The position numbers and the translations under genes are program-made. A stretch of DNA of 64,000 nt from Mycetocola sp. (GTDB lineage Bacteria > Actinomycetota > Actinomycetes > Actinomycetales > Microbacteriaceae). The notes under the pieces were generated by a model. That model made no database searches. It was not told the origin of the DNA and saw nothing but the letters and a program-made list of their open reading frames with translations. Position 1 is the first letter of the stretch, and every line of letters starts with the position of its first letter. The stretch is from contig NZ_JAODMP010000085.1 of NCBI RefSeq assembly GCF_025464835.1, positions 1 to 64,000 on the forward strand, in the 5' to 3' direction. Below are positions 6,629 to 27,105 of this stretch, piece by piece.

Positions 6629-6661
6629 TTAGGGTGAGGGGGCCCAAGAAGGAGATCATCC

Positions 6662-9734: not shown

Positions 9735-9761
9735 CACCACCACAATGAGAGGAACGGCCAC

Positions 9762-10296: not shown

Positions 10297-11919
10297 GTGT
10301 CGAACGTGCCGAATGAACCACAGATCACAGCGATCGTCCGATCCAATGGTACCGGTGAGGTCGCGGTCGACGGCGAACGGTTCGAGATGCAGACGGTAGA
10401 TGTCGCAAGCGCTCGCGCGGCGGTCATCGCCCGTGTCGCCGAGGAAGCCGGTTCCCGGGGCCGCCCGGTCCGGGTGGCGACGACAGATCTCGACGGCGTC
10501 TACGCCCTCATCGTGCACCCCAACGGTGACGTGGAATCTGAAGGGCCCATCCGTGCGGACGAGGCTGTCATCGCCCAGCCGGAATCCGCCCTCGCGCCGC
10601 CCCCGCCGTTCGGTCTGGGCGACCTGATCGGCTTCACCGAATTGGGCCCGGATCCCACACCTGGGTCCGGCAAACACTTCGAGCCCGCGCGGACCCGACG
10701 GTCGACGTTCCGCGCGCACGGCGACGATGCCGGCCGGACTGATGCCACGGACGATTCCGTCATGGGCGAGCCCGAAGTGCTGCCGGCCAACGGTGCTACC
10801 ACCGCGCTGGTGCCCGACCCTGTCGTGAGCGATCCTCCGCTGATGCCTGAGACGGGTCCGGCATCCAGCGCGGTCGGCTCCGCCCGCCCAGCCGCTGCCG
10901 ACCTGCCGACCCATGTCGCCGAGCCGGCGCTTGCGCCCTCCCGGGCGGGCATCCACTCGCTGTCGGCGGAGGGAGCCTCTGAGGCCGTCCCGACACTCGA
11001 CGACTTCCTCCAGTCGCGACCGTCGGCGCCAGAGGGGCCGGCGAAGCAGGGCTGGCAGGGTTTCGTGCGCCGCATGACGGGCGGCGTTCTTTCGCCACGA
11101 CCGGGCAAAGCCGAACAGTCACACCGGGACGCCATCCACCGTGTTCAGCGAGGTCTCAAGGGGCCACGCACCATCGTGGTGCTCAACCCGAAGGGCGGCG
11201 CGCACAAGACCACCGCGACGCTTCTGCTCGCTGCGACCTTCGGGATCCACCGGGGCGGCTCCACGCTCGCCTGGGACAACAACGAGACGCGCGGAACCCT
11301 CGGCTGGCGGGCACAGCCGTCTCGGCATTCGAACACCGCCGTGGATCTGCTCCGCGACGTCCACCTGTTCGCCGACGTGAGGTCGGCCCGTGTGGGGCAC
11401 CTCGACAACTACGTCAGGGGCCAGGGCGACGCCCAGTTCGATGTCCTCGCCTCCGACGAGGATGCCGCGGCGTCTTCGACGATCGACGCAAAGGCGTTCG
11501 ACAGCCTCCACTCGACGCTCAGCCGGTTCTACCGTCTGCTCGTCATCGACACCGGGAACAACATGCGTGCCTCGAACTGGGAGGCCGCGGTCGAAGCGGC
11601 CGACCAGCTTGTCGTGGTCACCACCGTCAATGAGGAGACCGCAGCCAGTGCGGCATGGCTGCTCGACGGCCTCCGCCAGAAGGGCCACCAGGACAAGGTC
11701 AGCCAGGCGGTGACCATCCTGTCTGCGCCGGGTGACGCGGTGCAGCCGGAGCTCACTCAGCGCCTGCACACGCACTTCTCCGCGCTCACCCGGGTGGTGC
11801 TCGAGGTTCCGTACGACCAGGGCTTCCAGAGCGGAGGGCCGCTCAACGTCGAGGTGCTCGCACCGCAGACCCGTGAGGCGTGGCTGCGGGTGACGGCGGC
11901 GGTCGCCGACGGACTCTAG
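10297..11919 (+). CDS. MinD/ParA-like ATPase with long low-complexity N-terminal region
   Basis: Deviant Walker A VVLNPKGGAHKTTATLLLA; LLVIDTGNN; about 270 aa Pro/Ala/Ser-rich N-terminal extension. Confidence 0.8.
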   Translation: MSNVPNEPQITAIVRSNGTGEVAVDGERFEMQTVDVASARAAVIARVAEEAGSRGRPVRVATTDLDGVYALIVHPNGDVESEGPIRADEAVIAQPESALAPPPPFGLGDLIGFTELGPDPTPGSGKHFEPARTRRSTFRAHGDDAGRTDATDDSVMGEPEVLPANGATTALVPDPVVSDPPLMPETGPASSAVGSARPAAADLPTHVAEPALAPSRAGIHSLSAEGASEAVPTLDDFLQSRPSAPEGPAKQGWQGFVRRMTGGVLSPRPGKAEQSHRDAIHRVQRGLKGPRTIVVLNPKGGAHKTTATLLLAATFGIHRGGSTLAWDNNETRGTLGWRAQPSRHSNTAVDLLRDVHLFADVRSARVGHLDNYVRGQGDAQFDVLASDEDAAASSTIDAKAFDSLHSTLSRFYRLLVIDTGNNMRASNWEAAVEAADQLVVVTTVNEETAASAAWLLDGLRQKGHQDKVSQAVTILSAPGDAVQPELTQRLHTHFSALTRVVLEVPYDQGFQSGGPLNVEVLAPQTREAWLRVTAAVADGL

Positions 11920-12785
11920 TGCAGGCCGATCGACTCCACTGCCCGAAGCTGCCCGCGGATGAACTGGTTCGCGTGCGCGGCGAGGTCATCGGAGTCGTCC
12001 CAGAGGTTCCGCCAGATACCGAGCATCCGGCTCAGGTCCTCGTTGACCACGGCTGACGAGAACGACTCGAAAACGACAGGGCCGTCGTATCCGTTCCGCG
12101 CCAAGCCGCGGAAGAACGAGCCGAAGTCGACGGTGCCGGACCCCAGATAGCCGCGATGGCTCTCGCCGATGTGCACGTAGCCGAGCCGGTCGCCCACATC
12201 GAGCACGGGGGTGTACTGGTCGGATTCCTCGATGTTCATGTGGTACGTGTCGAGGTGCACCGAGACGTTGGTGTGACCGACCTGGTCCAGGAACTCGAGC
12301 GCCTGCCTGCCGGTGTTCATCACGTTCGTCTCGTAACGGTTCACGACCTCCAGTGACAGGCGGATGCCGAGATCCTCGGCTCGGGAGGCGAGACGAGACA
12401 GAGCCTGGGCGCTGGATGCCCGACCGGCCAGAGTGGCGGGGGCCATGTATTTCTTCATCGCGCTGTAGATCACACCGCACAGATTGCTGCCGCCCATGGC
12501 GTGGACGATGTCGATGCATTCCTCAAGCAGGCGTTCCCCGGCGGCGACGACCGATGGGTCATCACTCGTCAGATCGGTGCCCGCGCTCAGGCCCAGGGAA
12601 GCGCTTACAGCGAGGTCGTTGTCCTTGAGGAGGCGGGCCGCAAGCATCCGATCAAAGTGATAGGGGTCCATCAGCGGAATTTCAATGAGATCGAACCCGG
12701 CCTGCTTGGTCTTTTCGATGGCCTTTGTCAATCCGGCCTGCTCGAATGAGCCGGAGAAGACGAGAGCGTGTGCGCCTATGAGCAC
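11916..12785 (-). CDS. Sugar phosphate isomerase/epimerase (TIM barrel, AP endonuclease family 2 fold)
   Basis: MLIGAHALVFSGSFEQAGLTKAIEKTKQAGFDLIEIPLMDPYHFD...NVSVHLDTYHMNIEE...VHIGESHRGYLGSGTVDF. Confidence 0.88.
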   Translation of the reverse strand: MLIGAHALVFSGSFEQAGLTKAIEKTKQAGFDLIEIPLMDPYHFDRMLAARLLKDNDLAVSASLGLSAGTDLTSDDPSVVAAGERLLEECIDIVHAMGGSNLCGVIYSAMKKYMAPATLAGRASSAQALSRLASRAEDLGIRLSLEVVNRYETNVMNTGRQALEFLDQVGHTNVSVHLDTYHMNIEESDQYTPVLDVGDRLGYVHIGESHRGYLGSGTVDFGSFFRGLARNGYDGPVVFESFSSAVVNEDLSRMLGIWRNLWDDSDDLAAHANQFIRGQLRAVESIGLH

Positions 12786-12998
12786 GATCGTGTCCTTTCA
12801 GAAGACGAGGCCAACCGATTCGGGCCCGCGGTGAAATCCCACCCTATTCGGATGGCCGAGAATTAGATACATTGGGGTACAACTGAAAACCCGACCGGAT
12901 CGATTTTTAGAATTGGTCGGATCTCTGGGCTTTCCGTGGCAGAATCCTTCTGGGAACCGAGAGCCCCGGTTCCACCCTCCGACGAAGTAGGTGAACGA

Positions 12999-14507
12999 GT
13001 GCCGACCCAACTGTTGAAGGTCAGCGGAATCAGCAAAAGCTTCCCTGGTGTCCAGGCCCTTCAGGACGTCCAGTTCGAGCTGAACCGTGGTGAGGTGCTC
13101 ACCCTGGTCGGCGAGAACGGTGCAGGCAAGTCGAGCCTGATGAAGATCCTGTCCGGTATCTACGCGAAGGATGCCGGCAGCATCGTCCTCGAGGGCGAAG
13201 AGGTCGTCATCGACAGCCCTCGCGCGGCGCAGCAGGTCGGCATCAGCATCATCCACCAGGAGATGAACCTGATGCCTCATTTGACCGTCGCCCAGAACAT
13301 CTATATCGGGCGAGAGCCACGCACCATGGGATTCGTCAATGAACGACGTCTCAATCGTCAGGCCGCTGACCTGCTCAACCGACTCGGCATCCACCTGAAT
13401 CCTCGCAGGCTCGTCGGTGAGCTCAGCGTGGCACACCAGCAGATGGTCGAGATAGCGAAGGCGTTGTCGTTCGACGCCAAAGTGCTCATCATGGACGAGC
13501 CGACCTCGGCGCTGACCGAGTCCGAGACCGAAACACTCTTCCGCCTGATCGAGGGCCTCAAGGAGCACGGCACCGGGATCATCTATATCTCGCACCGCAT
13601 GGAGGAGCTGCGTCGAATCGCCGACCGGGTCACCGTGCTCCGGGACGGGCATTACATCGGGAGCCTGGACAAGGGCGAGATCGACATCCCCACTGTCATC
13701 GAGATGATGGTCGGCCGTCACATCGAGGAAGGTGCCCGCCCTGAGGCTCGTCAGCACGCTCATGACGACGTCGTCCTGAAGGTGGAGAACCTCGGCACCC
13801 GGCACCTGCTCAAGGACATCAGCTTCGAACTCAGGCGCGGCGAAATCCTCGGGTTCGCTGGCCTGATGGGCGCTGGGCGTACCGAAGTCGCACGCGCGAT
13901 CATCGGCGCGGACCCCTCAGAGGGCGCGGTCATCCACGTGCAGGGCAAGGAAGTGAAGATCCACCAGCCGTCGGATGCCGTCGCGCACGGAATCGGCTAT
14001 CTCTCGGAGGACCGTAAAGCGCTGGGGCTCCTGCTCGAGCGAGACGTCAACACCAACATCCTGCTTGCCTCGCTCAACGACTACACCGGGCCGCTCGGTT
14101 TCATGCGTACCGGCAAAGGCAAGCAGAAATCCCGGGGCTACGTCGAGTCGTTGCGGATCAAAACCCCGTCGATCCACCAGATCACCAAGAACCTCTCCGG
14201 AGGCAACCAGCAGAAAGTCGTCATCGCCAAGTGGCTGGCGCGGGACTGCGACATTCTCATCTTCGACGAACCCACGCGCGGAATCGACGTGGGCGCCAAG
14301 GAGGAGATCTACCGGCTGCTCAACGATCTCGTCGCCCAGGGCAAATCGATCATCATGATTTCCTCAGAGCTTCCCGAGGTGTTGCGGCTGTCGCACCGGA
14401 TCGTTGTGATGGCCGGCGGGCGCATCACCGGGATCCTCAACAATGAAGACGCGAGCCAGGCGAAAATCATGGACTATGCGACCAACATCGACGACGAGAA
14501 AGAGTAA
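12999..14507 (+). CDS. Sugar ABC transporter ATP-binding protein (RbsA/MglA type, two NBDs)
   Basis: GENGAGKSSLMKILSG, LSGGNQQKVVIAKWL; GTG start VPTQLLKVSGISKSFPG preferred. Confidence 0.94.
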   Translation: MPTQLLKVSGISKSFPGVQALQDVQFELNRGEVLTLVGENGAGKSSLMKILSGIYAKDAGSIVLEGEEVVIDSPRAAQQVGISIIHQEMNLMPHLTVAQNIYIGREPRTMGFVNERRLNRQAADLLNRLGIHLNPRRLVGELSVAHQQMVEIAKALSFDAKVLIMDEPTSALTESETETLFRLIEGLKEHGTGIIYISHRMEELRRIADRVTVLRDGHYIGSLDKGEIDIPTVIEMMVGRHIEEGARPEARQHAHDDVVLKVENLGTRHLLKDISFELRRGEILGFAGLMGAGRTEVARAIIGADPSEGAVIHVQGKEVKIHQPSDAVAHGIGYLSEDRKALGLLLERDVNTNILLASLNDYTGPLGFMRTGKGKQKSRGYVESLRIKTPSIHQITKNLSGGNQQKVVIAKWLARDCDILIFDEPTRGIDVGAKEEIYRLLNDLVAQGKSIIMISSELPEVLRLSHRIVVMAGGRITGILNNEDASQAKIMDYATNIDDEKE

Positions 14508-14513
14508 AGGGAA

Positions 14514-15536
14514 ATGAACGCATCTCCTGTCATCGAAAAAGCGCCGAAGGTCGGCGAGACCGCTCCTGCGAAGTCGGGGACAGCAGTGACCTTCCTCCGC
14601 GCCAAGCTCCAGCAGTCGCTGGCGTTCGGCACCCTCATCGTTCTCGTGATCTTCTTCTCGATCGCCAGCAGCAACTTCTTCAGCTGGTCGAACATTTCGA
14701 GCATCCTGCTCGCGACGGCCGTGATCGGAATCCTGGCGCTCGGCACGACGTTCGTCATCATCACCGGTGGCATCGACCTGTCGATCGGTACCGGCATGAC
14801 ACTGGCTGCGGTGATGACGGGTATCTTCCTCGTCAACATGCAACTGCCACTGATCGTCGGTGTGCTCGGCGGACTCGCGACGGGTGCGCTGATGGGGTTC
14901 ATCAACGGGGTGAACATCGCCATCCTCAAGCTGCCCCCATTCATCGCGACCCTGGCGATGATGCTCATCGCTCAGGGTCTCGCCCTGGTGATCTCCGGGG
15001 TCCGTCCCATCTATTTCTCCGGAGTAGAGGGGTTCAAGAACATCTCACTGGGGACCATCATCCCCGGGCTGCCCAACGCGGTCCTCATCCTGTTCCTCCT
15101 CGCCATCGTCGCCTACCTGCTGCTGAGCAAGACCCTGTTCGGCCGCTACACCTTCGCGATCGGCAGCAATGAGGAGGCGACCCGCCTGTCGGGCGTCAAC
15201 ACCCGCAAGTGGCTGATCGTCGTCTATACGGTGGCGGGACTCTTCACCGGTTTCGCCGGTGTCGTGATCGCCGCCCGACTCGACTCGGCCCAGCCGCAGA
15301 TCGGTGTCGGCTATGAACTCCAGGCCATCGCCGCCGTCATCATCGGTGGCACCTCGCTCCTCGGCGGACGTGGCTCGATCATGGGTACGGTCATCGGTGC
15401 GCTCATCATGAGCGTGCTGATCAACGGCCTGCGGATCATGTCCATCCAAACCGAATGGCAGAACGTGGTCGTCGGAATCGTCATCCTGATCGCCGTCTTC
15501 ACCGACACCCTCCGCCAGCGGCGATCGGCCACCTAA
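14514..15536 (+). CDS. Sugar ABC transporter permease (RbsC type)
   Basis: ALGTTFVIITGGIDLSIGTGM...GGTSLLGGRGSIMGTVIGALIMSVLINGL. Confidence 0.94.
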   Translation: MNASPVIEKAPKVGETAPAKSGTAVTFLRAKLQQSLAFGTLIVLVIFFSIASSNFFSWSNISSILLATAVIGILALGTTFVIITGGIDLSIGTGMTLAAVMTGIFLVNMQLPLIVGVLGGLATGALMGFINGVNIAILKLPPFIATLAMMLIAQGLALVISGVRPIYFSGVEGFKNISLGTIIPGLPNAVLILFLLAIVAYLLLSKTLFGRYTFAIGSNEEATRLSGVNTRKWLIVVYTVAGLFTGFAGVVIAARLDSAQPQIGVGYELQAIAAVIIGGTSLLGGRGSIMGTVIGALIMSVLINGLRIMSIQTEWQNVVVGIVILIAVFTDTLRQRRSAT

Positions 15537-15600
15537 GCCCCCACGAACCGGGAAGGGCTGGCAGAACCGAGAGGCCGGGCTGCCTTTCCCGCGCAATCGT

Positions 15601-15612
15601 GAAATCGATTGC
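15601..15612. promoter_or_regulatory. LacI-operator-like site GAAATCGATTGC
   Basis: 11/12 identical to the palindrome at 2037-2048; about 130 bp upstream of the SBP start. Confidence 0.35.
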
Positions 15613-15740
15613 ATCGGCGTGATCCTGTGGGATATAACGATCTTGTATCTACGTGTACTATCGCCACTCCCGGTCACTCAAACGAAATACCATGGCCGAG
15701 TCAGCCGCTGGCTGGCCCGAACGAACAATGGAGTTATTCG

Positions 15741-16733
15741 ATGAAAACAGGTAAGAAAGTCGCCGCACTCGCGGCTGCGGCCGCGGTGGCCCTGAGCCTC
15801 GCCGGCTGTTCGAACGGCGGCGGCGGAGGAACGGCCGAGAGCTCCGGGTCCGGCGAGGGCGACATCCAGATCGCACTCGTTTCAAAAGGCTTCCAGCACC
15901 AGTTCTGGCAGGCGGTCAAGCAGGGCGCTGAACAGCGGGCAGAAGAGCTCGGCGTGTCAGTGACCTTCGATGGTCCTGCGGCCGAGACGGAGATCGACGG
16001 CCAGCTGCAGATGCTGCAGGCAGCCATCGACAAGAAGCCGGATGCCATCGGCTTCGCCGCCCTGGACCCCGAGGCGTGCATCCCGCTCTACGACGCAGCT
16101 GAAAGCGCCGGCATCCCGGTCGTCGAGTTCGACGCGGGCTGCTCCAGCGAATACGGCCAGAGCATCGCCAAGACCGACAGCCTGGGTGCAGGTGCCCTCG
16201 CCGCCGACCACATGGCCGAGCTCATCGGCGGAGAAGGCGAGGTGGCCATCGTCGGCCACAGCCAGATCAACTCGACCGGCGTGGAGCGTCGCGACGGTTT
16301 CGTCGATCAAATGGAAGCGGAATACCCCGACATCGAAATCGTCGACATCCAGTATGGTGACGGCGACCACCTCAAGTCGGCTGACATCGCGAAAGCCATG
16401 ATCCAGGCCCACCCGAACCTCAAGGGCATCTACGGCACCAACGAAGGCTCCGCGATCGGCGTCGTCAACGCTGTCGGCGAGCTGGGCCTCGAGTCCGGCG
16501 AACTGACCGTCGTCGGCTTCGACTCCGGTCAGGCTCAGATCGACGCCATCGAGAACGGGCTGATGGCCGGCGCCATCACCCAGAACCCGATCGGCATCGG
16601 CGAAGAGGTCGTGCAGGCCGCATACGACATCATCAACGGTGAAACTCCGGAGGAAGTCATCGACACCGGCTACTTCTGGTACGACAAGGACAACATGGAT
16701 GACGAGGAGATCGCCGCGGTTCTCTACAAGTAA
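15741..16733 (+). CDS. Sugar ABC transporter substrate-binding lipoprotein
   Basis: MKTGKKVAALAAAAAVALSLAGCSNGGG lipobox; periplasmic-binding-protein-like domain. Confidence 0.93.
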   Translation: MKTGKKVAALAAAAAVALSLAGCSNGGGGGTAESSGSGEGDIQIALVSKGFQHQFWQAVKQGAEQRAEELGVSVTFDGPAAETEIDGQLQMLQAAIDKKPDAIGFAALDPEACIPLYDAAESAGIPVVEFDAGCSSEYGQSIAKTDSLGAGALAADHMAELIGGEGEVAIVGHSQINSTGVERRDGFVDQMEAEYPDIEIVDIQYGDGDHLKSADIAKAMIQAHPNLKGIYGTNEGSAIGVVNAVGELGLESGELTVVGFDSGQAQIDAIENGLMAGAITQNPIGIGEEVVQAAYDIINGETPEEVIDTGYFWYDKDNMDDEEIAAVLYK

Positions 16734-16749
16734 GATCGCGTGACTCAGT

Positions 16750-16788
16750 ACTCGGCCCCTTCCTCCTTCCCGGGGGGAGGGGCCGAGT
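16750..16788. terminator. GC-rich hairpin, possible terminator or mRNA stabiliser between SBP and AKR genes
   Basis: ACTCGGCCCCTTCC...GGAGGGGCCGAGT; no clear T-run. Confidence 0.5.
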
Positions 16789-16809
16789 CGCACCCGGAGG
16801 AATACCGCC

Positions 16810-17775
16810 ATGCCGCCAGCCAGGAGCCAGCTTGGATTCGGACCGCTGTCATTCGGTGGAGCGTCGCTCGGCAACCTGTTCCGTGCGGTTGACAACGCTC
16901 AGGCGACGGCGACCCTGGAGACCGTGTGGGATCTCGGCATCCGCTACTTCGACACGTCGCCGCACTACGGACTGGGCCTCTCGGAGCGGAGGATCGGGAG
17001 ATTCCTCAAAGGCAAGCCCCGCGACGAGTTCGTGATCAGTACGAAGGTGGGGCGGCTGCTCGAACCCACTCCGGAGCGTGCCCACCAGCCCGATGACACG
17101 TGGTTTCTGGTGCCGGCGACGGCGCGGCGGGTATGGGATTACTCAGCGGACGGCATCCGGAAGAGCCTCGAGGACTCGCTCGACCGGCTCGGACTGGACC
17201 GCGTCGACATCCTCTACCTGCACGACCCGGAACAGTATGGGGTTCCCGGCGACATCCCCAGCGCCCTGGACGCGCTGGTTGGCTTGCGCGACGAGGGCCT
17301 CGTCGCCGCGGTCGGGGTTGGAACGAGTGATCTCGGCATCCTGCGTTCGGCGGTGGCGGCAAGCGATATCGATCTCGCCATGGTTTCGAACCGTTATACG
17401 TTGCTCGACTCGTCCGCCCGGATAGGGCTGTCAGACCTGTGCCGCACTCGAGGCGTCGGCATCGTCAACGTCGGCGTGTTCAACTCCGGGATACTCGCCA
17501 CGAGCGAGCCGCGCGAAGGAGCGCATTACGAATACGGTCCGGTCCCGTCCACCATTCAGGCGAAGGCGCACCGACTCGCTGCCATCTGCGCGGACCACGG
17601 CGTTGAACTGCCCGCTGCGGCGCTCCAGTACAGCTTGCGCGACGACGTCGTTCGAACGGTCGTCGTCGGCTCGGCCGACCCAGTTGAGATGCGCCAGAAC
17701 GTCGAGCGGATGGCGGCGCCCATCCCAGGCGGATTGTGGGCAGAGCTTGAAGCACAGGGGCTCATCCCCGCCTGA
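16810..17775 (+). CDS. Aldo/keto reductase, paralog of 7939..8895
   Basis: [44 protein letters not shown]; clearly similar to first AKR along full length. Confidence 0.9.
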   Translation: MPPARSQLGFGPLSFGGASLGNLFRAVDNAQATATLETVWDLGIRYFDTSPHYGLGLSERRIGRFLKGKPRDEFVISTKVGRLLEPTPERAHQPDDTWFLVPATARRVWDYSADGIRKSLEDSLDRLGLDRVDILYLHDPEQYGVPGDIPSALDALVGLRDEGLVAAVGVGTSDLGILRSAVAASDIDLAMVSNRYTLLDSSARIGLSDLCRTRGVGIVNVGVFNSGILATSEPREGAHYEYGPVPSTIQAKAHRLAAICADHGVELPAAALQYSLRDDVVRTVVVGSADPVEMRQNVERMAAPIPGGLWAELEAQGLIPA

Positions 17776-17784
17776 TCGGATGCC

Positions 17785-18726
17785 TCAGCGCACGTCCCAC
17801 GCCAGCCAGCGGTGCGCATTCGACGTGAGGATGTCGGAGAGCGCCTCGTGCCCGATCCGCTCCGCCAGCCGGGGGAGATACCGACGCCCGAGGTAGGCGA
17901 GACCCGGCATTCCGCCGTAGGACTCGTACCGGCTTCTCCGTGCCACATCGCCGCCGAGGACGACGGTTGCTCCCGCTGCCACGACGTCGGCGGTGAGGTC
18001 GAGCAACTCGGCGTCGGTGCGGCTGCGCGGTCGAGCCATCCCGTCGTAGCCCAGCACAGCGCCACGCGCGGCCAGGTCGAGGTGGAGCCCCGGGTCGGGG
18101 TTGCGGTCGGCGTGCGCAAGAACCACCCGGGAGGGTCGCACACCGAATGCCTCCAGCACGTCGAGAACCTCATGGGCAGCTGTCCCGAACTCGAGATGCA
18201 CCATGACGGGGGCGCCGGTCTCGACGTGGGCCGCGGCCACGCCGGACAGCGCTCGCTGCTCGAAGGCCGAGATCTGCCAGTAATCGATCCCCGCCTTGAG
18301 CACGCCAGCGCGCACCGTGCTCCTGGCGCCGGGCGGACCGTCGTCGTTGGGCGGCATCCCCGTTGTCAGATCGGCGAGAAAGAGAGCCGTGAGCGCTGTC
18401 TCGTCGAGGTTTCGCAACCAGTGGTCGTCGGCGTAGTGGGCGTCGCGGTGGGCGCCGGTCGTCGCCACGACTTTCAGCGAGGTCGCGGCGCTGATCCGGG
18501 CGACCGCTCGGGGGTCGCGGCCGAGCCCGACCGGTGTGGCGTCGACCATGGCGTCGAAACCGCTCGCTCGCAGCGCCGCCGCCTCAGCGCGCGACGCCGC
18601 CTCGTCGGTCAGCTCATCGCCCGGCAACAGCGGTGAGACCTGGAAGAGGTGCTCGTGGTAGTTCACCCGGCCGATCTCGCCCGCGGCGACGTCGCCGAGC
18701 ACCGTGCGAATGAACGGCGTGATCAT
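17785..18726 (-). CDS. Phosphotriesterase family hydrolase (candidate sugar lactonase)
   Basis: MITPFIRTVLGDVAAGEIGRVNYHEHLFQ; HxH motif and DATPVGLGRDP. Confidence 0.85.
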   Translation of the reverse strand: MITPFIRTVLGDVAAGEIGRVNYHEHLFQVSPLLPGDELTDEAASRAEAAALRASGFDAMVDATPVGLGRDPRAVARISAATSLKVVATTGAHRDAHYADDHWLRNLDETALTALFLADLTTGMPPNDDGPPGARSTVRAGVLKAGIDYWQISAFEQRALSGVAAAHVETGAPVMVHLEFGTAAHEVLDVLEAFGVRPSRVVLAHADRNPDPGLHLDLAARGAVLGYDGMARPRSRTDAELLDLTADVVAAGATVVLGGDVARRSRYESYGGMPGLAYLGRRYLPRLAERIGHEALSDILTSNAHRWLAWDVR

Positions 18727-19634
18727 CGGTCGTTCAGGGCAGCGTCGGCCAGTCGCTTCACCAGCTGCTCGTTCATTTCCAGCGAAAACACCTCCGCGAT
18801 CACCTGCGTCCAGCCGTGGATGAAGTACCGCCAACCATCGACGATGACGAGCTCGGCGGATCCCTCCTGCCGCCTGGCCTGTGCGAGGAACTCGAGGCTG
18901 CCGCGATAATTGAATTCCCACACGTACGCGTTGTGGGGGAACACAGCAGAGTCCGGGAGCGGCGACCCTGGCCGGTCCTTACCGAGCCCCGACGCGTTCA
19001 CCACCAGGCTTGACGCAGGGAGCGCAGTGAGCAGCGCCCTCGTCGCATCCTGGTCGGATGCCAGCAGATAGCGGATTGCCTCAGGTGGGGTGCCGCGACG
19101 AGCATGGACATCGCGGAGATGCTCGAGTCTGAACGTGCTGGTGTCTGTCACGGTGATCGAGTCCGGGCGGTCGTCCCGCTCGCTGAGATGCCAGCTCAGC
19201 GCGGTCCCTGCGCCTCCGGCGCCCATGATCAGCGCGTGCGCCCCGGTCGAATCGAAGTGATTCGCAGGGAGGAACTCGCTCAACGCCAGCCCGGCAGTGA
19301 TCGGGTCTTTCGCATGACCGAGCAGGGCACCGTCCCGTTTCGAGATGCTGGAGATCTCCCCGCAGAGCGTGCTGAACGTGTCGAGCTCGTCGAAAAGGTC
19401 GTGTGCGGCTTCGAACAAGGCCATCTTGTGCGTTGTGACCAGTGCACCGAGGTGGTGGGGATCGTCCCGGATCTGCTCGACGAGCGTGCGGTAATTCTCG
19501 ACGGTCGCGTCGAGCGGGAGGTCATGTCCGATCAGGGTGCGTGTGGGCAGGTTCAGGATCTCCGCCCAGCGGGGGAAGATCCGCATGATCGAGGATTCGG
19601 CTGTGCTCACCCCGACGAATCCCATGTGGGTCAT
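18723..19634 (-). CDS. Shikimate dehydrogenase (AroE)-like oxidoreductase
   Basis: GALVTTHKMALFEAAHDLFDELD, LIMGAGGAGTALSWHL, NASGLGKDRPGSPL. Confidence 0.82.
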   Translation of the reverse strand: MTHMGFVGVSTAESSIMRIFPRWAEILNLPTRTLIGHDLPLDATVENYRTLVEQIRDDPHHLGALVTTHKMALFEAAHDLFDELDTFSTLCGEISSISKRDGALLGHAKDPITAGLALSEFLPANHFDSTGAHALIMGAGGAGTALSWHLSERDDRPDSITVTDTSTFRLEHLRDVHARRGTPPEAIRYLLASDQDATRALLTALPASSLVVNASGLGKDRPGSPLPDSAVFPHNAYVWEFNYRGSLEFLAQARRQEGSAELVIVDGWRYFIHGWTQVIAEVFSLEMNEQLVKRLADAALNDR

Positions 19635-20257
19635 GCGCCCACCCCCGACGCGGAGAACGTTTCTGCGCGACGCGTGATCGCCGCCCAGTCCCCGGATGCC
19701 AGGGCCGCCGACGATACGAGGTCGCTGCCCGCACCCACAGCGACCGCGCCCGCTGCGATCCAGTCACCGATGTTCTCGGGGCTCACGCCGCCGGTCGGCA
19801 TCAGCGGCACGTCGGGGAAGGGGCCGCGAAGCGCCTTGAGGTAGCCCGGTCCTCCCAGAGATGCCGGGAAAATCTTGACAACGTCGCTGCCGTACTCCAC
19901 GGCCGCCATCACCTCGCTCGGTGTCAGCGCGCCGGTCATCACCGTGAGCCCGGTCGCCTTCATGGCGGCCGTGAGTCTCTCGCGTGTGCCGGGGCTGACG
20001 AGAAACCGAGCACCGGCATCCGCCGCTTGTTCCGCCTGCTCTTGGGTGGTGACTGTGCCAGCTCCGAGGTAGATCCGGTCGCCGTACTTCTCGTCGAGCG
20101 CCCGGATCACGGCGGGTGCATCGGGGGTCGAGTAGGTGATCTCGAGCCCGGTGACTCCTCCGTCGACGAGGGCGTCGGCAGCCCGCAGGGCGCTTTCGGA
20201 CGTTGGCGCGCGCAGCACCGCAAGGACGCGAGTGGTTTTGAGGGTATCGAGCGACAT
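19631..20257 (-). CDS. KDPG/KHG aldolase family protein
   Basis: GLEITYSTPDAPAVI, YLGAGTVTTQEQ, VVKIFPASLGGPGYLKALRGPFPDVPLMPTGGV. Confidence 0.92.
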   Translation of the reverse strand: MSLDTLKTTRVLAVLRAPTSESALRAADALVDGGVTGLEITYSTPDAPAVIRALDEKYGDRIYLGAGTVTTQEQAEQAADAGARFLVSPGTRERLTAAMKATGLTVMTGALTPSEVMAAVEYGSDVVKIFPASLGGPGYLKALRGPFPDVPLMPTGGVSPENIGDWIAAGAVAVGAGSDLVSSAALASGDWAAITRRAETFSASGVGA

Positions 20258-20260
20258 GGG

Positions 20261-21217
20261 TCAGCCTTCCAACGGGACGGGGAACGGGGGAGTGGCGCCG
20301 GCGAGCACGGCAAGTACATTCGACACGGCCATCGACCCCATGGCGTCGACCGCCTCGACGGTCTGGGCGCCGAAGTGGGGTGTGATCACCACCCGGTCGG
20401 CGAGATCGTCGGCCAAGAGCGGCGACGTCAGCCCTGCGGTGTCTCCGGCCAGGGTGTCGGCGGCGAAACCCGCCAGGCGTCCGTCCCGAAGGGCGGCGGC
20501 GAGAGGCCCTTCGTCGATCAGGTCGGGCCTGGCGGTGTTCACGAGAACGAGGCCTCGGCGTGCGGATGCCAGCCAACCGGAATCGACGATCACCGCCCCG
20601 CCCGGTGCGTGAAGCGACACCAGATCGCAACGTGCGGGCATCTCGGCGACATCGAGCGGCTGGGCGTCGGCCGCGCGGATCGCGTCGTCACCGAGCCATG
20701 GATCATGCGCGACGATGCGGGAGCCGAATCCGGAGAGCCGCCGGGCGACGCCCTGGCCGATTCTGCCGAACCCGACGATGCCGATGGTGAGAGAGCCGAG
20801 TTCGCGGCCACGGAGCACCGACCAGTTGCCCATTCGAACCCGGCGGTCGCCCTCGGTAGTGCCGCGCAGGACGGCGAGCATGAGGCCGACCGCATGGTCG
20901 GCAACGGCGCCACTGTTTGCCCCGGGAGTGTTGGTCACCAGGATGCCGCGTTCGGCGGCCGCGGCACGGTCGACGGCGTCGATCCCGACGCCGTAGCGGG
21001 CGACCACCTTAAGTCGAGGTGCCGCGTCGAGATGGGCTGCGGTGATCGGGCCGGTGCCAGCGATCCACGCGTCGATGTGCGCCAACTGCGGCCCGAGCTC
21101 GTCGAGATGATGCGTGGACGACCCACGTGTCACCTGGTGACCTTCCGCGGCGAGCTCGCCGAGAAGGTCCCGGGACCCGGAGGAGAAGGAACGGCTGGTG
21201 GCGAGGATGTGGGCCAT
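20261..21217 (-). CDS. D-isomer-specific 2-hydroxyacid dehydrogenase
   Basis: VVARYGVGIDAVD, LTIGIVGFGRIGQGVARRL, ADLADRVVITPHFGAQTVEA. Confidence 0.9.
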   Translation of the reverse strand: MAHILATSRSFSSGSRDLLGELAAEGHQVTRGSSTHHLDELGPQLAHIDAWIAGTGPITAAHLDAAPRLKVVARYGVGIDAVDRAAAAERGILVTNTPGANSGAVADHAVGLMLAVLRGTTEGDRRVRMGNWSVLRGRELGSLTIGIVGFGRIGQGVARRLSGFGSRIVAHDPWLGDDAIRAADAQPLDVAEMPARCDLVSLHAPGGAVIVDSGWLASARRGLVLVNTARPDLIDEGPLAAALRDGRLAGFAADTLAGDTAGLTSPLLADDLADRVVITPHFGAQTVEAVDAMGSMAVSNVLAVLAGATPPFPVPLEG

Positions 21218-22716
21218 CAGCCGGGGAACCTGCCGGAGTTCCATGTCTCGAGGCTGGCGTAACCGTCGAGGAAGACCTGATGCCTGGCCAGGTAGTCGGT
21301 GTGACGGGACCCGTCAGGCGTGAACTCGGCAGTGACCTCCGACAGCCCGCGGGCGGCGCTGAAGTCGTCGACGAGGCCCAGGCCGACAGCGGCGGTGACC
21401 GCGGCCCCGAGACTGTTCGCCTCTTCGACGATGCTGCGGCGGCGCACAGGAACCCCCCACACATCGGCGAGGATCTGTAGCCACACGTCGCTGGCTGCCC
21501 CGCCACCGATCGCATCGATCCGGTCCACCACCGCACCGGATTCGCGGAAAGCGTGGATGCAGGTGAGCAGGTTGAATGCCACGCCCTCAAGCACGGCCCG
21601 TGTCATCGCCGCGCGTCCGTGGTGCCGGCCGATGCCGAGGAATGCGCCGGAAGCATCCGGGTTCCAGTGGGGAGAGCGTTCGCCGAGAAGATAGGGCAGG
21701 AAGTAGAGGCCGCTTGTAGAGGCTCCGGCGGTGGACGCGTCAGCCACCAGGGCGGAGAGCGTAGCGCTGGAGGGGTGAGGGTCGAGCAGTTCCGACACCC
21801 AGGCGAGGGCGGCACCGCCGGCCTGCATCGTCGCCGTTGGCACGTAGCTACCTGGGACGACGTTGTCGAAGGTCATGGTGCGCATGAGCGGGTCATACAC
21901 CGGGGTGTCGCTGGCGAAAGAGATCCACGAGGAGGTGCCAAGCGAAACGTATGCCCCGTCGTCTGGAGCTACGATACCGGCGCCGACGGCGGCTATCGGG
22001 CCGTCGCCCCCGCCCATCACAACCCGGGTTCCCGCGCGAAGACCCGTCGCACTCGCCGCGTCCGCCGTCAGGTCGCCGACGACGGCCGTGGAGTCGAGGA
22101 TCTCGGGAAAGAGGGAGTGGTCGAGGCGTGCGGCGGAGAGCATCTCGGGCGACCATGAGCCGAGCGCCTGGTCGTAGGCGTTCGTGGCGGAGGCATCCGA
22201 CCGGTCGGTTGCGAGTCGCCCCGTGAGCCTGTGAATCACGAAATCCTTGGCCACACAGAAATGCCGGACCCGCGCGAAGATATCCGGTTCGTGATCACGC
22301 ACCCACATAACCTTCTCGAGGGAGTAAGTGGGATTGAGCCGGTGCCCCAGCAGTGAGTAGGCACGGTCCCGCCCGATGACGGATTCGAGGGCTGTGGTCT
22401 GCGCACCCGAGCGGGTATCGGCCCAGATGATCGCCGGTCGAACCGGTCGGTACTCGGCGTCGAGCAGCACAGCCCCCATCATCTGGCCGCTGATGGCCAG
22501 ACCGGTCACCTGGCCCGGGTCGACCTCGGAGCGGGCGATCAACTCCCGCGTCGCCTGGACGACCGCGCTCCACCAGTCCTCAGCGTTTTGCTCGGCGACA
22601 CCGCCGTCGGCGAAGTGTGCCGGGTAGCCGACGGTGACGGCGCTCAGCAGGCGGCCGTCATCCGTGTGCAGGGAGGCCTTGTTTCCCGTCGTGCCGAGAT
22701 CGTGGGCGAGGATCAC
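21217..22716 (-). CDS. FGGY-family carbohydrate kinase (xylulokinase-like)
   Basis: MILAHDLGTTGNKASLHTDDGRL ... GGDGPIAAVGAG ... DAIGGGAASDVWLQILADVWGVPV. Confidence 0.92.
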   Translation of the reverse strand: MILAHDLGTTGNKASLHTDDGRLLSAVTVGYPAHFADGGVAEQNAEDWWSAVVQATRELIARSEVDPGQVTGLAISGQMMGAVLLDAEYRPVRPAIIWADTRSGAQTTALESVIGRDRAYSLLGHRLNPTYSLEKVMWVRDHEPDIFARVRHFCVAKDFVIHRLTGRLATDRSDASATNAYDQALGSWSPEMLSAARLDHSLFPEILDSTAVVGDLTADAASATGLRAGTRVVMGGGDGPIAAVGAGIVAPDDGAYVSLGTSSWISFASDTPVYDPLMRTMTFDNVVPGSYVPTATMQAGGAALAWVSELLDPHPSSATLSALVADASTAGASTSGLYFLPYLLGERSPHWNPDASGAFLGIGRHHGRAAMTRAVLEGVAFNLLTCIHAFRESGAVVDRIDAIGGGAASDVWLQILADVWGVPVRRRSIVEEANSLGAAVTAAVGLGLVDDFSAARGLSEVTAEFTPDGSRHTDYLARHQVFLDGYASLETWNSGRFPG

Positions 22717-22721
22717 GGCGA

Positions 22722-23300
22722 TCAGCTCGCGTCGTAGTCGACGAACTCGACGCCGGACTCGCCGGTCAGGACACGGCGTCCCATCCCGTGCTCGAGCACC
22801 CAGCCGTAATCGTGCCCGGCTCCTCCCGGGTAGACGGCGAGGAACGAGTACGGCTCGTCACCGACGTTGACGCTGCGGTGAGCCCACCCCGGAGGGATGT
22901 AGCCGATGATGCCGGGTGTCATGTCGACCCATTGGGTCTCCGTTCCGTCGAACATCAAAAGCCCGCCGCGCCCGGAAATGCCGAGATAGATTTCGCCCTG
23001 GTGGTTCGGGTGCTGATGACCTTTGGTCATCCACAGTTCCCCGGCGGTCGAGCCAGGCTGGATGGTGGTGATCGACTGGGGCAGTTCGCGCTCGATCTCG
23101 GGCACACGCGAGGAGACGACGGAGTACACCACAGGGTCGCCGTCGCTGACCGCCTTCTCCCATGCCTCGTGGTCGCGGAAGAGTCCCTCGAGATCGGACA
23201 TCCGGCGGGCGAGCGTCGGGCCCTCGGGTTGGAGGGTGCCGCCGGCCGGATCGAAACGGATGCTCATCGGTGGCACGGGAAGGGGTGAGTAGCTCGTCAC
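22722..23300 (-). CDS. Cupin-type glucose-6-phosphate isomerase
   Basis: ELWMTKGHQHPNHQGEIYLGISGRGGLLMFDG...VDMTPGIIGYIPPGWAHRSVNVGDEP. Confidence 0.82.
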   Translation of the reverse strand: MTSYSPLPVPPMSIRFDPAGGTLQPEGPTLARRMSDLEGLFRDHEAWEKAVSDGDPVVYSVVSSRVPEIERELPQSITTIQPGSTAGELWMTKGHQHPNHQGEIYLGISGRGGLLMFDGTETQWVDMTPGIIGYIPPGWAHRSVNVGDEPYSFLAVYPGGAGHDYGWVLEHGMGRRVLTGESGVEFVDYDAS

Positions 23301-23347
23301 AATCTCTCCTCGATCGGGCAGCGGCGGTGCTGCGCTCCCAGAGTATC

Positions 23348-23377
23348 TGTAATGACACGTAACATGTAATTACATGT
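23348..23377. promoter_or_regulatory. Putative GntR operator cluster: TGTAATGACA (23348-23357) and palindrome ACATGTAATTACATGT (23362-23377)
   Basis: Perfect 16-bp palindrome plus a second TGTAATKACA copy, upstream of the cupin/FGGY genes and next to the GntR gene. Confidence 0.55.
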
Positions 23378-23402
23378 CACGAATTCTCTCGACGGAGCCG
23401 GC

Positions 23403-24227
23403 TCAGTTCGGACCGCTGTGCCGGAGCGAGGCCGTGCTCACCTCAGTCGGCGCCGCGTTCAGCTGGAACTCGAATCGGCTGCGGTCGCCCCGGTGGTACG
23501 CGACGAAGAACTCCATCGGCCGGTCTCTCTCATCGAAGCCGATACTGCGGAGCACCAGGAGAGCCTTGCCCGTGCCCACGCCGAGCAGCGCCCCTTGTTC
23601 CTCAGTCGCCGAAGCGGCCTCGGCAGAGCGCACTCCGCGAACCGCTCGGATGCCGTGGGTCGCGAGGACCGCATACAAGGACTGATCGCTGAGATCCTCC
23701 TGCAGCACAGCTTGGCCGATGTCGTGCGGCAGATACGTCGTCGTCCAGGACCACGGCTCGTCGTCGACGTGGCGAAGCCGCTCGATGACGACGACCGCCG
23801 TCCCTGGGGCGACGCCGAGAGCATCCGCCACTTCATCATCGGCCGGAGCGACCTCCTGCCGGCGAACGTCGCTGTGCACGTGGCCTCCACGCGCCGCGAC
23901 CTCCTGGAACAGGCCGGTCAGGGTGTGAACGAGACTCTCGGGGGTCTTCTGGTGGGCGACGAAAGTGCCCTTGCCCTTGACCCGTTCAATCACTCCCTGG
24001 TGTTCGAGCTGCGACAGGGCCTGCCGAACGACGGTGCGGGAGACGCCGAACTGTTCGCACAGTTTGTGTTCACCGGGCAGGAGATCACCCGGGCGGAGGG
24101 CGAGGCGGGTGATGTCGTCAATGATCCGGTGCTTGAGCTGGTGGTACATCGGCGTCGGCGCCTGCCGGTCGATGTCGGCGGCCGTTCCGCGGTCGATGTC
24201 TGGTTCGGGGCTGGTCAGAAGTGTCAC
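23403..24227 (-). CDS. GntR family regulator (HutC/UTRA subfamily)
   Basis: PMYHQLKHRIIDDITRLALRPGDLLPGEHKLCEQFGVSRTVVRQALSQLEHQGVIERVKGKGTFV. Confidence 0.93.
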   Translation of the reverse strand: MTLLTSPEPDIDRGTAADIDRQAPTPMYHQLKHRIIDDITRLALRPGDLLPGEHKLCEQFGVSRTVVRQALSQLEHQGVIERVKGKGTFVAHQKTPESLVHTLTGLFQEVAARGGHVHSDVRRQEVAPADDEVADALGVAPGTAVVVIERLRHVDDEPWSWTTTYLPHDIGQAVLQEDLSDQSLYAVLATHGIRAVRGVRSAEAASATEEQGALLGVGTGKALLVLRSIGFDERDRPMEFFVAYHRGDRSRFEFQLNAAPTEVSTASLRHSGPN

Positions 24228-24242
24228 GGTGGTCGATTCTTC

Positions 24243-24647
24243 TCAGTACGCGACGCCGGCCTGCAGGAGGACGTTGGCGTATGGCGTGTACTCGCCGGAG
24301 CGCACGAAGGCCCGGGCGTCACGGGTGCGGAGCTTGAATTCGGTGTGGGGCACCAGCGTGATCTGGACGCCGAGTGGGTCGAGCCGGTCGCGCAGCGCCT
24401 GGAGCACGTGGGGGCTGTGCTCCTCGATCTCGGCGGAGACTGTGGCGCCTTCGACGACGAGTTCGGCAAGGACGGTGTCGAGCACGTCGAAGAACGCCGG
24501 GGCGCCCGGCCGGTACGCAAGATCGACTCGCTCCGAGCCGGCGGGGATCGGCAGGCCGGCGTCCGTGACGACGATGAGGTCGGTGTGCCCGGTCTCGGAG
24601 ATGATCCGGGAGAGCTGCGGGTTGATGGTGGTGTTCGTGCTTCTCAT
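24243..24647 (-). CDS. rbsD: D-ribose pyranase (RbsD family)
   Basis: MRSTNTTINPQLSRIISETGHTDLIVVTDAGLPIPAGSERVDLAYRPG; followed by ribokinase overlap. Confidence 0.92.
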   Translation of the reverse strand: MRSTNTTINPQLSRIISETGHTDLIVVTDAGLPIPAGSERVDLAYRPGAPAFFDVLDTVLAELVVEGATVSAEIEEHSPHVLQALRDRLDPLGVQITLVPHTEFKLRTRDARAFVRSGEYTPYANVLLQAGVAY

Positions 24648-25606
24648 CGGAGTGCTTCCTTCCGGGAGGCTGCGAGGGCGTCGACCTCGTCACGGTGGGG
24701 GAGGCTCGGTGATGCTCCCCGCCGGGTGACGGCGAGCGCACCGGCGGCGATGGCACGACGGATGGCATCCCTCACGTCGTATCCGTCGGCCAGCGAGGCG
24801 CCGAGGTAACCGGCGAACGCGTCGCCCGCCGCCGTCGTGTCGACCGCGTCGACCGGGATCGACTCGAAGCGGTCGACGGCGTCGGCCGTGACGAGCACCG
24901 CACCCGCTGCCGCCATCGTGATGAGCGCGCTGCTCGCGCCACGGGCGGTGAACCAGCGGCCGGCTTCGATTGCAGACTGCTGGTCGACGACGGGGATTCC
25001 GGTGAGGATCGACGCCTCGGTCTCGTTCGGGGTGACGATGTCGACGAGGGGCCAGATGGATTCGTCGAGCGACGCGGCAGGTGCCGGGTCGAGGATCACG
25101 GTGAGACCGGCCGCATTCGCCTTCCGGATCGCGTACTGGGTCAGCGCCCAGGGAATCTCGAGTTGGGTGAGCAGGACACTGCAGGTCGATCCGAGTTCGT
25201 CGAACGCTTCGTCGATCTGCGCTTCGCTGAGCGATGCGTTCGCGAGGGGCACCATGACGATGTCATTCTCCCCGGAGTCGTCGACCCGGATGTGGGCGAT
25301 GCCGGTCGGGCCGGGCACCGCACGCAGGTGGTCGATGTGCACGCCGGCGTCGCGGAGGCCGCGGGTGACGAGCTCCGAGAACAGGTCGGTCCCAACGCAG
25401 CCGACCATGTGGGCGTTGCCTCCGGCGAGGCCGGCCGAGACGGCCTGATTCGCGCCTTTGCCGCCGAGAACAAGGGTGAAATCGTCCCCGAGGATGGTCT
25501 CTCCCCGTGCGGGGAGCCGGGAGGAGAAAGTTGTCAGGTCAGCGGTGATGCTGCCGACGATCAGGACGCCGCCGGAGGCGGATGCGGACGACGGTGTCTC
25601 GTTCAT
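24644..25606 (-). CDS. rbsK: Ribokinase (PfkB family)
   Basis: VLIVGSITADLTTFSSRLPARGETILGDDFTLVLGGKGANQAV...VDTTAAGDAFAGYLGA. Confidence 0.92.
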   Translation of the reverse strand: MNETPSSASASGGVLIVGSITADLTTFSSRLPARGETILGDDFTLVLGGKGANQAVSAGLAGGNAHMVGCVGTDLFSELVTRGLRDAGVHIDHLRAVPGPTGIAHIRVDDSGENDIVMVPLANASLSEAQIDEAFDELGSTCSVLLTQLEIPWALTQYAIRKANAAGLTVILDPAPAASLDESIWPLVDIVTPNETEASILTGIPVVDQQSAIEAGRWFTARGASSALITMAAAGAVLVTADAVDRFESIPVDAVDTTAAGDAFAGYLGASLADGYDVRDAIRRAIAAGALAVTRRGASPSLPHRDEVDALAASRKEALR

Positions 25607-25659
25607 GAGTGCCTTTCAGGGCGCAATTCTCCTGACCGCGGAGACCAGTTCCGCGGGCC

Positions 25660-25669
25660 TGTCATTACA
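25660..25669. promoter_or_regulatory. TGTCATTACA motif (reverse complement of TGTAATGACA) upstream of ribokinase
   Basis: Exact reverse-complement match to 23348-23357, 54 bp upstream of rbsK start. Confidence 0.45.
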
Positions 25670-25755
25670 TTAGCGGACAGGTAAGCCAACCTCGGGGGAC
25701 CTGCGCCTGGCTTTGATACGCTTCCTCAAAACGATCCCTGCACAGGAAGTCTCCC

Positions 25756-26415
25756 ATGACGACGTCTCGCCCCCGCTTTTATGCCGACAGCGCTGACGTT
25801 GACGCCGTGTCCCAACTCCTGGCAGCCGGTCTGGTGCACGGGGTGACAACGAACCCGACGATCCTCGAGCGCGCTGGACATTCGGTCGCAGCCATGGCCC
25901 ACCTGTATGCCCGCTGGGAGTCCGAGGGCGCCAGGGAGATCTTCTTCCAGTCCTGGGGGTCGGCCGCCGACGAGCTCCTCGCGCACGCCGACGACATCCT
26001 TGCCCTCGGCTCGCTCGCCGTCGTCAAGGTGCCGGCCACGCGCGCCGGTTTCGCTGCGGCATCCGCTCTCACCCTCCGGGGCGCGCCGGTGCTGCTCACC
26101 GCGGTCTACTCCGACGCCCAGGCGCTCGCCGCCGCAACCATTGGCGTGCCGTACATCGCCCCGTACCTGGGGCGGCTGAACGATGCGGGGCGAGACGGGC
26201 TTGCCGAGATCGGCCGGATGCAGGCACTCGTCGCCGGCAGCGGAACCAATGTTCTTGCTGCCAGTCTGCGCCGCCCCGCTGACATCGTCGATCTCGCGCT
26301 ACTGGGCGTGCCGTACTTCACGGCAGCGCCGTCGGTGCTTCTCGCCGCGTTGCAGGACGACGTCAGCGATCGTTCAGCAGCAGAGTTCGAGGCGGCTGTG
26401 GCCCGCGGGCTCTGA
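25756..26415 (+). CDS. Transaldolase / fructose-6-phosphate aldolase-like protein
   Basis: RFYADSADVDAVSQLLAAGLVHGVTTNPTILERAG...VVKVPATRAGF...YIAPYLGRLNDAG. Confidence 0.9.
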   Translation: MTTSRPRFYADSADVDAVSQLLAAGLVHGVTTNPTILERAGHSVAAMAHLYARWESEGAREIFFQSWGSAADELLAHADDILALGSLAVVKVPATRAGFAAASALTLRGAPVLLTAVYSDAQALAAATIGVPYIAPYLGRLNDAGRDGLAEIGRMQALVAGSGTNVLAASLRRPADIVDLALLGVPYFTAAPSVLLAALQDDVSDRSAAEFEAAVARGL

Positions 26416-26430
26416 AACGCTCGCGACGGG

Positions 26431-27105
26431 TCAGGCGGCCGCGTCGCGGAGCCACTGTTCGACGCCCGAGATGTGCACGAGCGTGAGCGCCTGCGCGAGC
26501 TCGGCGTCTCCGCGCTCGAGGGCGTCCACGATCGCCCGGTGCTCCGCCAGGGTGCGCCCCACCGAGTTCTCCTGGGTGAGGCCACGCCAGATGCGGGCGC
26601 GGACCGTGTTGCTCGAAAGCGATTCGATCAGGCTCGCGAGGTAGGAATTTCCCGCCGACCCCACGATCGCCCGGTGGAACTCGAGGTCGTGCGCGACGAG
26701 ACCTTCGACGTCGGTGCTGTGACCGACGGAGTCGATCTGGGCGCGCAGATCGCGGACGGCAGCATCCGTCACCCGGGCAGCGGCGAGGGCGACGGCAGCG
26801 GGCTCGAGGATGCGGCGCACCGCGAACAGCTCGAGGATCGACGAGTCGTCGTGCAGGTCCACGACGAAAGACATCGCTTCGAGCAGCAGGCGAGGCTCCA
26901 GGCTGGTGACATAGGTGCCGTCGCCCCGGCGCACGTCGAGCACCCGGATCACCTCGAGGGCCTTGACCGCTTCGCGCATGGAGCTGCGTGACAGTCCGAG
27001 GCGTTCGGAGAGCTCCTTTTCCGGCGGGAGGCGATCGCCGGGGCCGAGCTGGCCCGAGAGGATCATCTCTTTGATCTTGAGGATCGCCGCATCCGTGACT
27101 GCCAT
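26431..27105 (-). CDS. FadR-type GntR regulator (FCD domain)
   Basis: ILKIKEMILSGQLGPGDRLPPEKELSERLGLSRSSMREAVKALEVI. Confidence 0.93.
   Translation of the reverse strand: MAVTDAAILKIKEMILSGQLGPGDRLPPEKELSERLGLSRSSMREAVKALEVIRVLDVRRGDGTYVTSLEPRLLLEAMSFVVDLHDDSSILELFAVRRILEPAAVALAAARVTDAAVRDLRAQIDSVGHSTDVEGLVAHDLEFHRAIVGSAGNSYLASLIESLSSNTVRARIWRGLTQENSVGRTLAEHRAIVDALERGDAELAQALTLVHISGVEQWLRDAAA

Follow-up and report, generated by a model that had tools for sequence, protein, structure and literature searches.

We analysed a 64,000-nucleotide stretch of DNA from Mycetocola sp. (contig NZ_JAODMP010000085.1, positions 1 to 64,000; hereafter the window), in which a sugar-catabolic locus at 11916–27105 contains a six-gene operon that begins with a cupin-type phosphoglucose isomerase (PGI) gene. 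Our tentative reading is that the locus is a dedicated GntR regulon whose products would import a sugar, convert it first to a ketose and then degrade it by a phosphorylative, oxidative route; the likeliest candidate is a rare ketohexose of the allulose or tagatose type. Sugar catabolic regulons are already known in kind; for this combination of enzymes we found no published match in the open-access literature searched. An earlier note on this DNA, made from its letters alone, had listed the genes, and Pfam and NCBIfam models confirmed the presence, position and fold of every gene it named. The genes and sites are given below, the core operon first.

22722–23300, minus strand: cupin-type phosphoglucose (sugar-6-phosphate) isomerase, first gene of the operon (PF06560, 72.4 bits against a cut-off of 20.7)
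21217–22716, minus strand: FGGY kinase, xylulokinase-like (TIGR01312, 395.9 bits against a cut-off of 380.25; top structure match XylB)
20261–21244, minus strand: D-2-hydroxyacid dehydrogenase (2-HADH), phosphoglycerate-dehydrogenase-like (PF02826, PF00389; closest structure phosphoglycerate dehydrogenase)
19631–20257, minus strand: KDPG/KHG-family class I aldolase (TIGR01182, 208.7 bits against a cut-off of 156)
18723–19634, minus strand: AroE-like dehydrogenase of a distinct subfamily (predicted shikimate/quinate dehydrogenase fold, pLDDT 95)
17785–18726, minus strand: phosphotriesterase (PTE)-family binuclear metal hydrolase, putative sugar-phosphate lactonase (PF02126; closest structures 3pnz and 3msr/3ovg)
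23346–23381, unstranded: two GntR-type operator palindromes before the core operon, at 23346 and 23363 (TCTGTAATGACACG; CATGTAATTACATG; best score 23.0, 0 of 300 shuffles)
23403–24227, minus strand: GntR/UTRA (HutC-type) regulator, putative regulon repressor (PF00392 and PF07702), adjoining the operator
24243–24647, minus strand: RbsD-type sugar pyranase (NF008761, 145.9 bits against a cut-off of 93)
24644–25606, minus strand: ribokinase-like PfkB kinase, rbsK (TIGR02152, 289.5 bits, slightly below the cut-off of 299.65)
25658–25671, unstranded: operator CCTGTCATTACATT between rbsK and the FSA-like gene (score 17.2, 0 of 300 shuffles)
25756–26415, plus strand: transaldolase/FSA-like protein, divergent from rbsK (PF00923, 112 bits)
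26431–27105, minus strand: FCD-type GntR regulator, neighbourhood association only (PF07729; co-located in Microbacteriaceae)
11916–12785, minus strand: ketose 3-epimerase of the D-allulose 3-epimerase type, divergent from rbsA (phmmer matches 8yeb/5zfs)
12936–14507, plus strand: RbsA-type ABC ATPase (Pfam/NCBIfam)
14514–15536, plus strand: RbsC-type permease (Pfam/NCBIfam)
15741–16733, plus strand: lipoprotein sugar-binding protein (SBP; top NCBIfam models D-allose and rhamnose binding proteins, below cut-off)
16810–17775: aldo-keto reductase (AKR), between the SBP and PTE genes and convergent to the latter

The core operon runs on the minus strand from 23300 to 17785 and encodes, in order, PGI, the FGGY kinase, 2-HADH, the KDPG-family aldolase, the AroE-like dehydrogenase and the PTE-family hydrolase. 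Its genes are separated by gaps or overlaps of at most 5 nt, except that the FGGY and 2-HADH genes overlap by 28 nt. We corrected the start of the PTE gene from 18921 to the ATG at 18726, with a 4-nt overlap with the stop of the AroE-like gene.

A palindrome with the consensus CCTGTAATTACAGG stands before the PGI operon not only in Microbacteriaceae but also in Arthrobacter and in several further families of actinobacteria. When the 2.66-Mb genome was searched with a relaxed form of this pattern, only the three window sites were returned, and a reversed control pattern returned none. Strict matches in 13 whole genomes lay nearly all at the module or at the aldolase. The latter gene stands alone in most Microbacterium, outside the operon and tens of kilobases off; the operator lies directly before it in all six Microbacterium genomes where the region was examined, and the distant aldolase therefore belongs to the pathway. 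We also considered that this aldolase is part of a KDG kinase operon and rejected the idea, as no kinase adjoins it. The operator is found in the epimerase/rbsA intergenic region of most Microbacterium as well, the FSA-like gene is kept beside it in Cryobacterium and Microbacterium, and orthologues of the GntR/UTRA regulator accompany the module in relatives. One dedicated GntR regulon is well supported, in line with the single carbohydrate regulon proposed in the earlier note: the core operon and rbsK/FSA share an operator that is confined to the locus genome-wide. The FCD regulator, counted in that proposal as a member, is present and co-located in Microbacteriaceae; the operator scoring of the window found no operator for it, and we rejected it as an operator-controlled member.

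Relatives were found by similarity to the AroE-like protein (592 pattern stretches, 500 of them confirmed and 80 kept at 48–72% identity). These were combined with loci from a phylum sample and with rhizobial and other plasmids, and the proportions reported here describe these loci rather than all bacteria. Five partner functions, namely PGI, FGGY kinase, 2-HADH, KDPG aldolase and a lactonase-type hydrolase, were counted with hidden Markov models. We found at least four of the five in 58 of 70 loci that were at least 18 kb long and carried the AroE-like gene, compared with 0 of 20 control loci around canonical aroE. Together with the genome-wide confinement of the operator, this comparison indicates that the enzyme set is grouped beyond chance. 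AroE-like relatives occur in hundreds of genome contigs, with hosts in Actinomycetota, Pseudomonadota, Chloroflexota, Bacillota and Spirochaetota. Among the carriers are Microbacterium, Cryobacterium, Arthrobacter, Saccharopolyspora, Actinomadura, Nocardioides, Rhizobium, Sinorhizobium, roseobacters, Paraburkholderia, Anaerolineae, Lysinibacillus and a Spirochaetes bacterium.

The AroE-like protein is not a shikimate dehydrogenase. It has no Pfam match at 1e-3, and its NCBIfam matches to shikimate dehydrogenases are weak (at most 42 bits against cut-offs of at least 200; 32 bits against 200.2 for TIGR00507). By fold, its predicted structure is nearest to shikimate and quinate dehydrogenases; by profile, its top match among solved structures is the 5-ketofructose reductase 7cok. 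It shares with these enzymes their fold and their Lys/Asp catalytic dyad (K70 and D110, invariant in 40 AroE-like sequences). In contrast, alignment with 19 canonical sequences revealed that the shikimate-recognition SxSP motif, the asparagine of the NT motif (Asn86) and the C-terminal glutamine of MLxxQ are replaced in module members by family-specific conserved residues. In all carriers, automatic annotation that calls this gene a shikimate dehydrogenase is probably mistaken. Elsewhere in the same genome (contig C8) there is a separate, weak candidate for aroE.

AroE-like and PTE genes are adjacent in 49 loci. The PTE metal ligands H24, H26, K144, H177, H205 and D260 are invariant in all 21 aligned sequences, and basic residues at 208, 232, 234 and 263 are kept in the family. 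The enzyme 3msr/3ovg is a phospho-furanose lactonase with the phosphate contacts K217, K244, Y245, R275 and Y278. The aligned positions are R208, R234, S235, R263 and R266 in the window enzyme and R, R or K, variable, R and mostly R in the family. The window PTE has the fold and the binuclear metal site in common with phospho-furanose lactonases (NF045706), and several of its basic residues align with the phosphate site; it differs at two of these contacts and scores 129 bits against that model's cut-off of 630.

In most Pseudomonadota loci and a few others, a metallo-beta-lactamase (MBL)-fold enzyme replaces the PTE. The PTE occurs in 59 loci and the MBL-fold hydrolase in 17; the only locus with both has each beside its own AroE-like copy. 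Mapped on the AroE tree, the MBL label has to change four to five times, and therefore the replacement occurred repeatedly. Two unrelated metallohydrolases that swap beside one dehydrogenase are best read as lactonases, a predicted role that the MBL-fold enzyme takes from its standing in for the PTE. We tried UlaG as its identity and rejected it: no UlaG model matched, and one copy has a weak generic metal-dependent hydrolase match. In Microbacterium sp. Bi121 (L060, 8986–13655) there are two AroE-like genes, one followed by a PTE gene and the other, on the opposite strand, beside an MBL-fold enzyme.

Active-site residues are also kept in the cupin, 2-HADH and the aldolase. The cupin matches archaeal PGI structures (phmmer E 1.9e-44) and retains their H, H, E, H metal ligands and HDYG stretch; H95, H97, E103, H141, D164 and Y165 are conserved in 31 loci. 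Because these PGI ligands and the substrate Tyr/His cluster are retained, the enzyme should interconvert aldose and ketose phosphates. The true substrate of the FGGY kinase is not readable from its match to the xylulokinase model. In 2-HADH the Arg and His of the catalytic triad are conserved and the Glu is kept as Glu or Asp, and in the aldolase E39 and the Schiff-base K128 are invariant. The Entner-Doudoroff dehydratase Edd (TIGR01196) is absent from the genome, where no protein scores above 188.9 bits (cut-off 708), other dehydratase families not having been searched genome-wide. Among 18 carriers, Edd exceeded its cut-off in only 3, and a KDPG aldolase was present in 17. As Edd is missing here and in 15 of those 18 carriers while nearly all have the aldolase, the substrate of the aldolase is probably made without Edd. 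The genome has a second KDPG-aldolase-family gene, next to a contig end (contig C99:91010-91417).

From these data we infer the following order of reactions. The sugar would be imported by the RbsABC-type system and epimerised between ketoses by the 3-epimerase; the FGGY kinase would then phosphorylate the ketose, and the cupin isomerase would convert the ketose phosphate to an aldose phosphate. The AroE-like enzyme would oxidise this with NAD(P)+ to a lactone phosphate, which the PTE-family enzyme, or the MBL-fold enzyme elsewhere, would open to the aldonate phosphate. 2-HADH would oxidise C2 to give a 2-keto aldonate phosphate, and the KDPG-family aldolase would cleave the latter, releasing glyceraldehyde 3-phosphate and a keto acid of three carbons. 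With no Edd-type dehydratase present, this acid would be hydroxypyruvate, except where the starting sugar lacks its 3-hydroxyl group already (a 3-deoxy sugar). RbsD/RbsK and the FSA-like protein may deal with ribose-type or side-product sugars within the same regulon. We also sought fusions between core enzymes as a guide to step order; there were none in the loci examined.

These results support the logic outlined in the earlier note, in which a lactone is hydrolysed, dehydrogenation takes place and a KDPG-type aldolase makes the cleavage; they do not support its placing of non-phosphorylated chemistry before a late kinase. Phosphorylation probably comes first, as judged from the cupin, which is homologous to PGI and retains the active site, and from the basic residues of the PTE that align with the phosphate site of its phospho-furanose-lactonase relative. 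It is possible, though on balance doubtful, that the module represents a phosphorylative oxidative pathway that degrades ketohexoses or hexitols in several phyla without a dehydratase. In it an AroE-family protein would act as an aldose-phosphate 1-dehydrogenase, and the KDPG-family aldolase would convert a fully hydroxylated 2-keto-hexonate 6-phosphate to hydroxypyruvate and glyceraldehyde 3-phosphate.

Several observations bear on the sugar. The window epimerase matches the D-allulose (ketose) 3-epimerase structures 5zfs/8yeb over its full length (phmmer E 1e-120, 289 of 289 residues, 405 bits); it scores 160.6 bits with NF051856, below the cut-off of 300, and its specificity is predicted from sequence. 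The other enzymes of the module occur in none of the allulose pathways that we found. An SBP beside the module in rhizobia matches 4ry9 (E 7e-115), presumably a D-talitol complex, and rhizobial loci also have a GolD/DthD-family polyol dehydrogenase and glycerol-dehydrogenase-like enzymes beside the module. In the Lysinibacillus macroides locus (L113, 368–15077) the module is accompanied by a PfkB-type hexose kinase, two Zn-dependent dehydrogenases and a LacD-family aldolase encoded on the opposite strand, a setting that links the module to tagatose-6-phosphate-like chemistry. The 3-epimerase, the likenesses of the window and rhizobial SBPs, rbsD/rbsK, the rhizobial polyol dehydrogenases and the Lysinibacillus kinase and LacD-family aldolase together hint at a ketohexose or hexitol of the allulose–tagatose group. 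Reading the sugar from the window SBP was rejected, its PDB relatives being too distant.

Some points weigh against the proposed pathway. KDPG aldolases normally give pyruvate, not hydroxypyruvate, and dehydratases outside the Edd model may be the source of the aldolase substrate. To our knowledge, no characterised AroE-family member oxidises an anomeric carbon. The substrates, ligands and activities of all these proteins are predicted, and we infer the step order and the identity of the lactone-making dehydrogenase. The transporter/epimerase promoter of the window has no clear operator (best score 5.3, 24 of 300 shuffles). The Chloroflexota branch often has no recognised lactonase nearby, and several loci have no 2-HADH or aldolase nearby.

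We also weighed other explanations of the same genes. The module might make 6-phosphogluconate or another central sugar acid phosphate, with 2-HADH and the AroE-like enzyme jointly inverting a single carbon through an oxidation and a reduction, and with only a side role for the aldolase. KguD-type 2-hydroxyacid dehydrogenases reduce 2-ketogluconate 6-phosphate, and the aldolase lies outside the core operon in most Microbacterium. However, this distant aldolase bears the regulon operator in every Microbacterium genome examined, and we regard carbon inversion as unlikely. Slightly less likely again is the same enzyme order acting on a 3-deoxy sugar, such as 3-deoxyfructose or a related 3-deoxy ketose. 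2-HADH would then make KDPG or a stereoisomer, from which the aldolase would give pyruvate with no dehydratase needed; a normal KDPG aldolase without Edd would be explained and all other steps kept. The 3-epimerase, RbsD/RbsK and the polyol dehydrogenases of other carriers instead indicate ordinary ketoses and polyols, and carriers from so many phyla are unlikely to live on 3-deoxy sugars.

It is improbable that the AroE-like protein reduces a keto sugar, for instance 5-keto-fructose, at the entry to the pathway, with the rest of the operon an ordinary kinase/isomerase catabolism. The profile match to 7cok favours this, but the nearest structures by fold are shikimate and quinate dehydrogenases, and a putative shikimate dehydrogenase from Clostridium pasteurianum, similar to 5-keto-fructose reductase, was inactive on 5-keto-fructose (PMC7954740). 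The tight pairing of AroE-like and hydrolase genes and the hydrolase swap would also be left unexplained.

There is little to be said for the scheme of the earlier note, in which the AKR makes a lactone by oxidising the free aldose, the PTE opens this lactone and phosphorylation comes late. The AKR and PTE genes adjoin, and L-fucose-type sugars are oxidised by members of this AKR family. However, the AKR at 16810–17775 is a window-specific paralogue (54%) of the L-fucose-type AKR at 7939–8895; it has no operator, and AKRs near the module elsewhere are mostly closer to the 7939–8895 protein. We rejected it as a core member, since it is not conserved with the module, and the cupin and PTE indicate phosphorylated intermediates. 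Hardly credible at all is a chance meeting of unrelated ribose, L-fucose and rare-sugar operons, for which the complete-looking L-fucose cluster next door and the operator-free transporter promoter might speak, given the common operator, the synteny in Microbacteriaceae and the 58/70 against 0/20 loci.

The phosphorylative route through a ketose proposed here can be compared with known pathways. In the Entner-Doudoroff pathway (Zwf, Pgl, Edd, Eda), a phosphorylated aldose likewise passes through a lactone, a lactonase and a sugar acid phosphate to a KDPG-family aldolase. The module differs in having no Edd, with the AroE-like enzyme in place of Zwf, the PTE or MBL-fold enzyme in place of Pgl and 2-HADH in place of the dehydration step; although a KDPG aldolase is present, identity with this pathway was rejected because Edd is missing. 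SBP-guided work on Agrobacterium reportedly led to hexitol pathways (D-altritol, galactitol) with ABC import, polyol dehydrogenases and ketose kinases in similar rhizobial settings; these are said to use ketose phosphate epimerisation, not a route through AroE-like, lactonase, 2-HADH and aldolase steps. For the L-fucose oxidative pathway, the enolase-type dehydratase, fuconolactonase and FAA hydrolase lie outside the regulon, at 5631–9734, and no operator was found at or near these genes. As the earlier note had suspected, the enzyme set matched no described pathway in the open-access literature searched; a description in a paywalled journal is possible.

If the proposal is correct, the module would be a common, unrecognised sugar route in soil and plant-associated bacteria, with two chemically new steps. 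It would give a function to many proteins labelled 'shikimate dehydrogenase', 'phosphotriesterase' or 'glucose-6-phosphate isomerase', and the much-used D-allulose 3-epimerase family would gain a plausible natural operon.

We also noted features around the module. The lipoprotein start of the SBP is probably the ATG at 15741. Between the SBP and AKR genes, a long G+C-rich inverted repeat at 16747–16790 (CTCGGCCCC...GGGGCCGAG) resembles a terminator or processing hairpin parting the AKR from the transporter genes. The adjoining region at 4788–10181 holds a complete-looking L-fucose-type oxidative cluster (SDR, FAA hydrolase, enolase-superfamily dehydratase, AKR, amidohydrolase-2 lactonase and FucU/RbsD mutarotase). 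In Arthrobacter and Microbacterium, parts of this cluster likewise lie together with the module. On a plasmid of Shinella zoogloeoides (L127) the module is expanded and includes another AroE-type gene, a pair of sugar-phosphate epimerases, several polyol dehydrogenases and a protein of the inositol-monophosphatase family. Finally, a distant L-fucose isomerase relative of about 570 aa, without an NCBIfam name, recurs near the module (L041, L061, L067, L070 and L103) and is sometimes accompanied by a second FGGY kinase.

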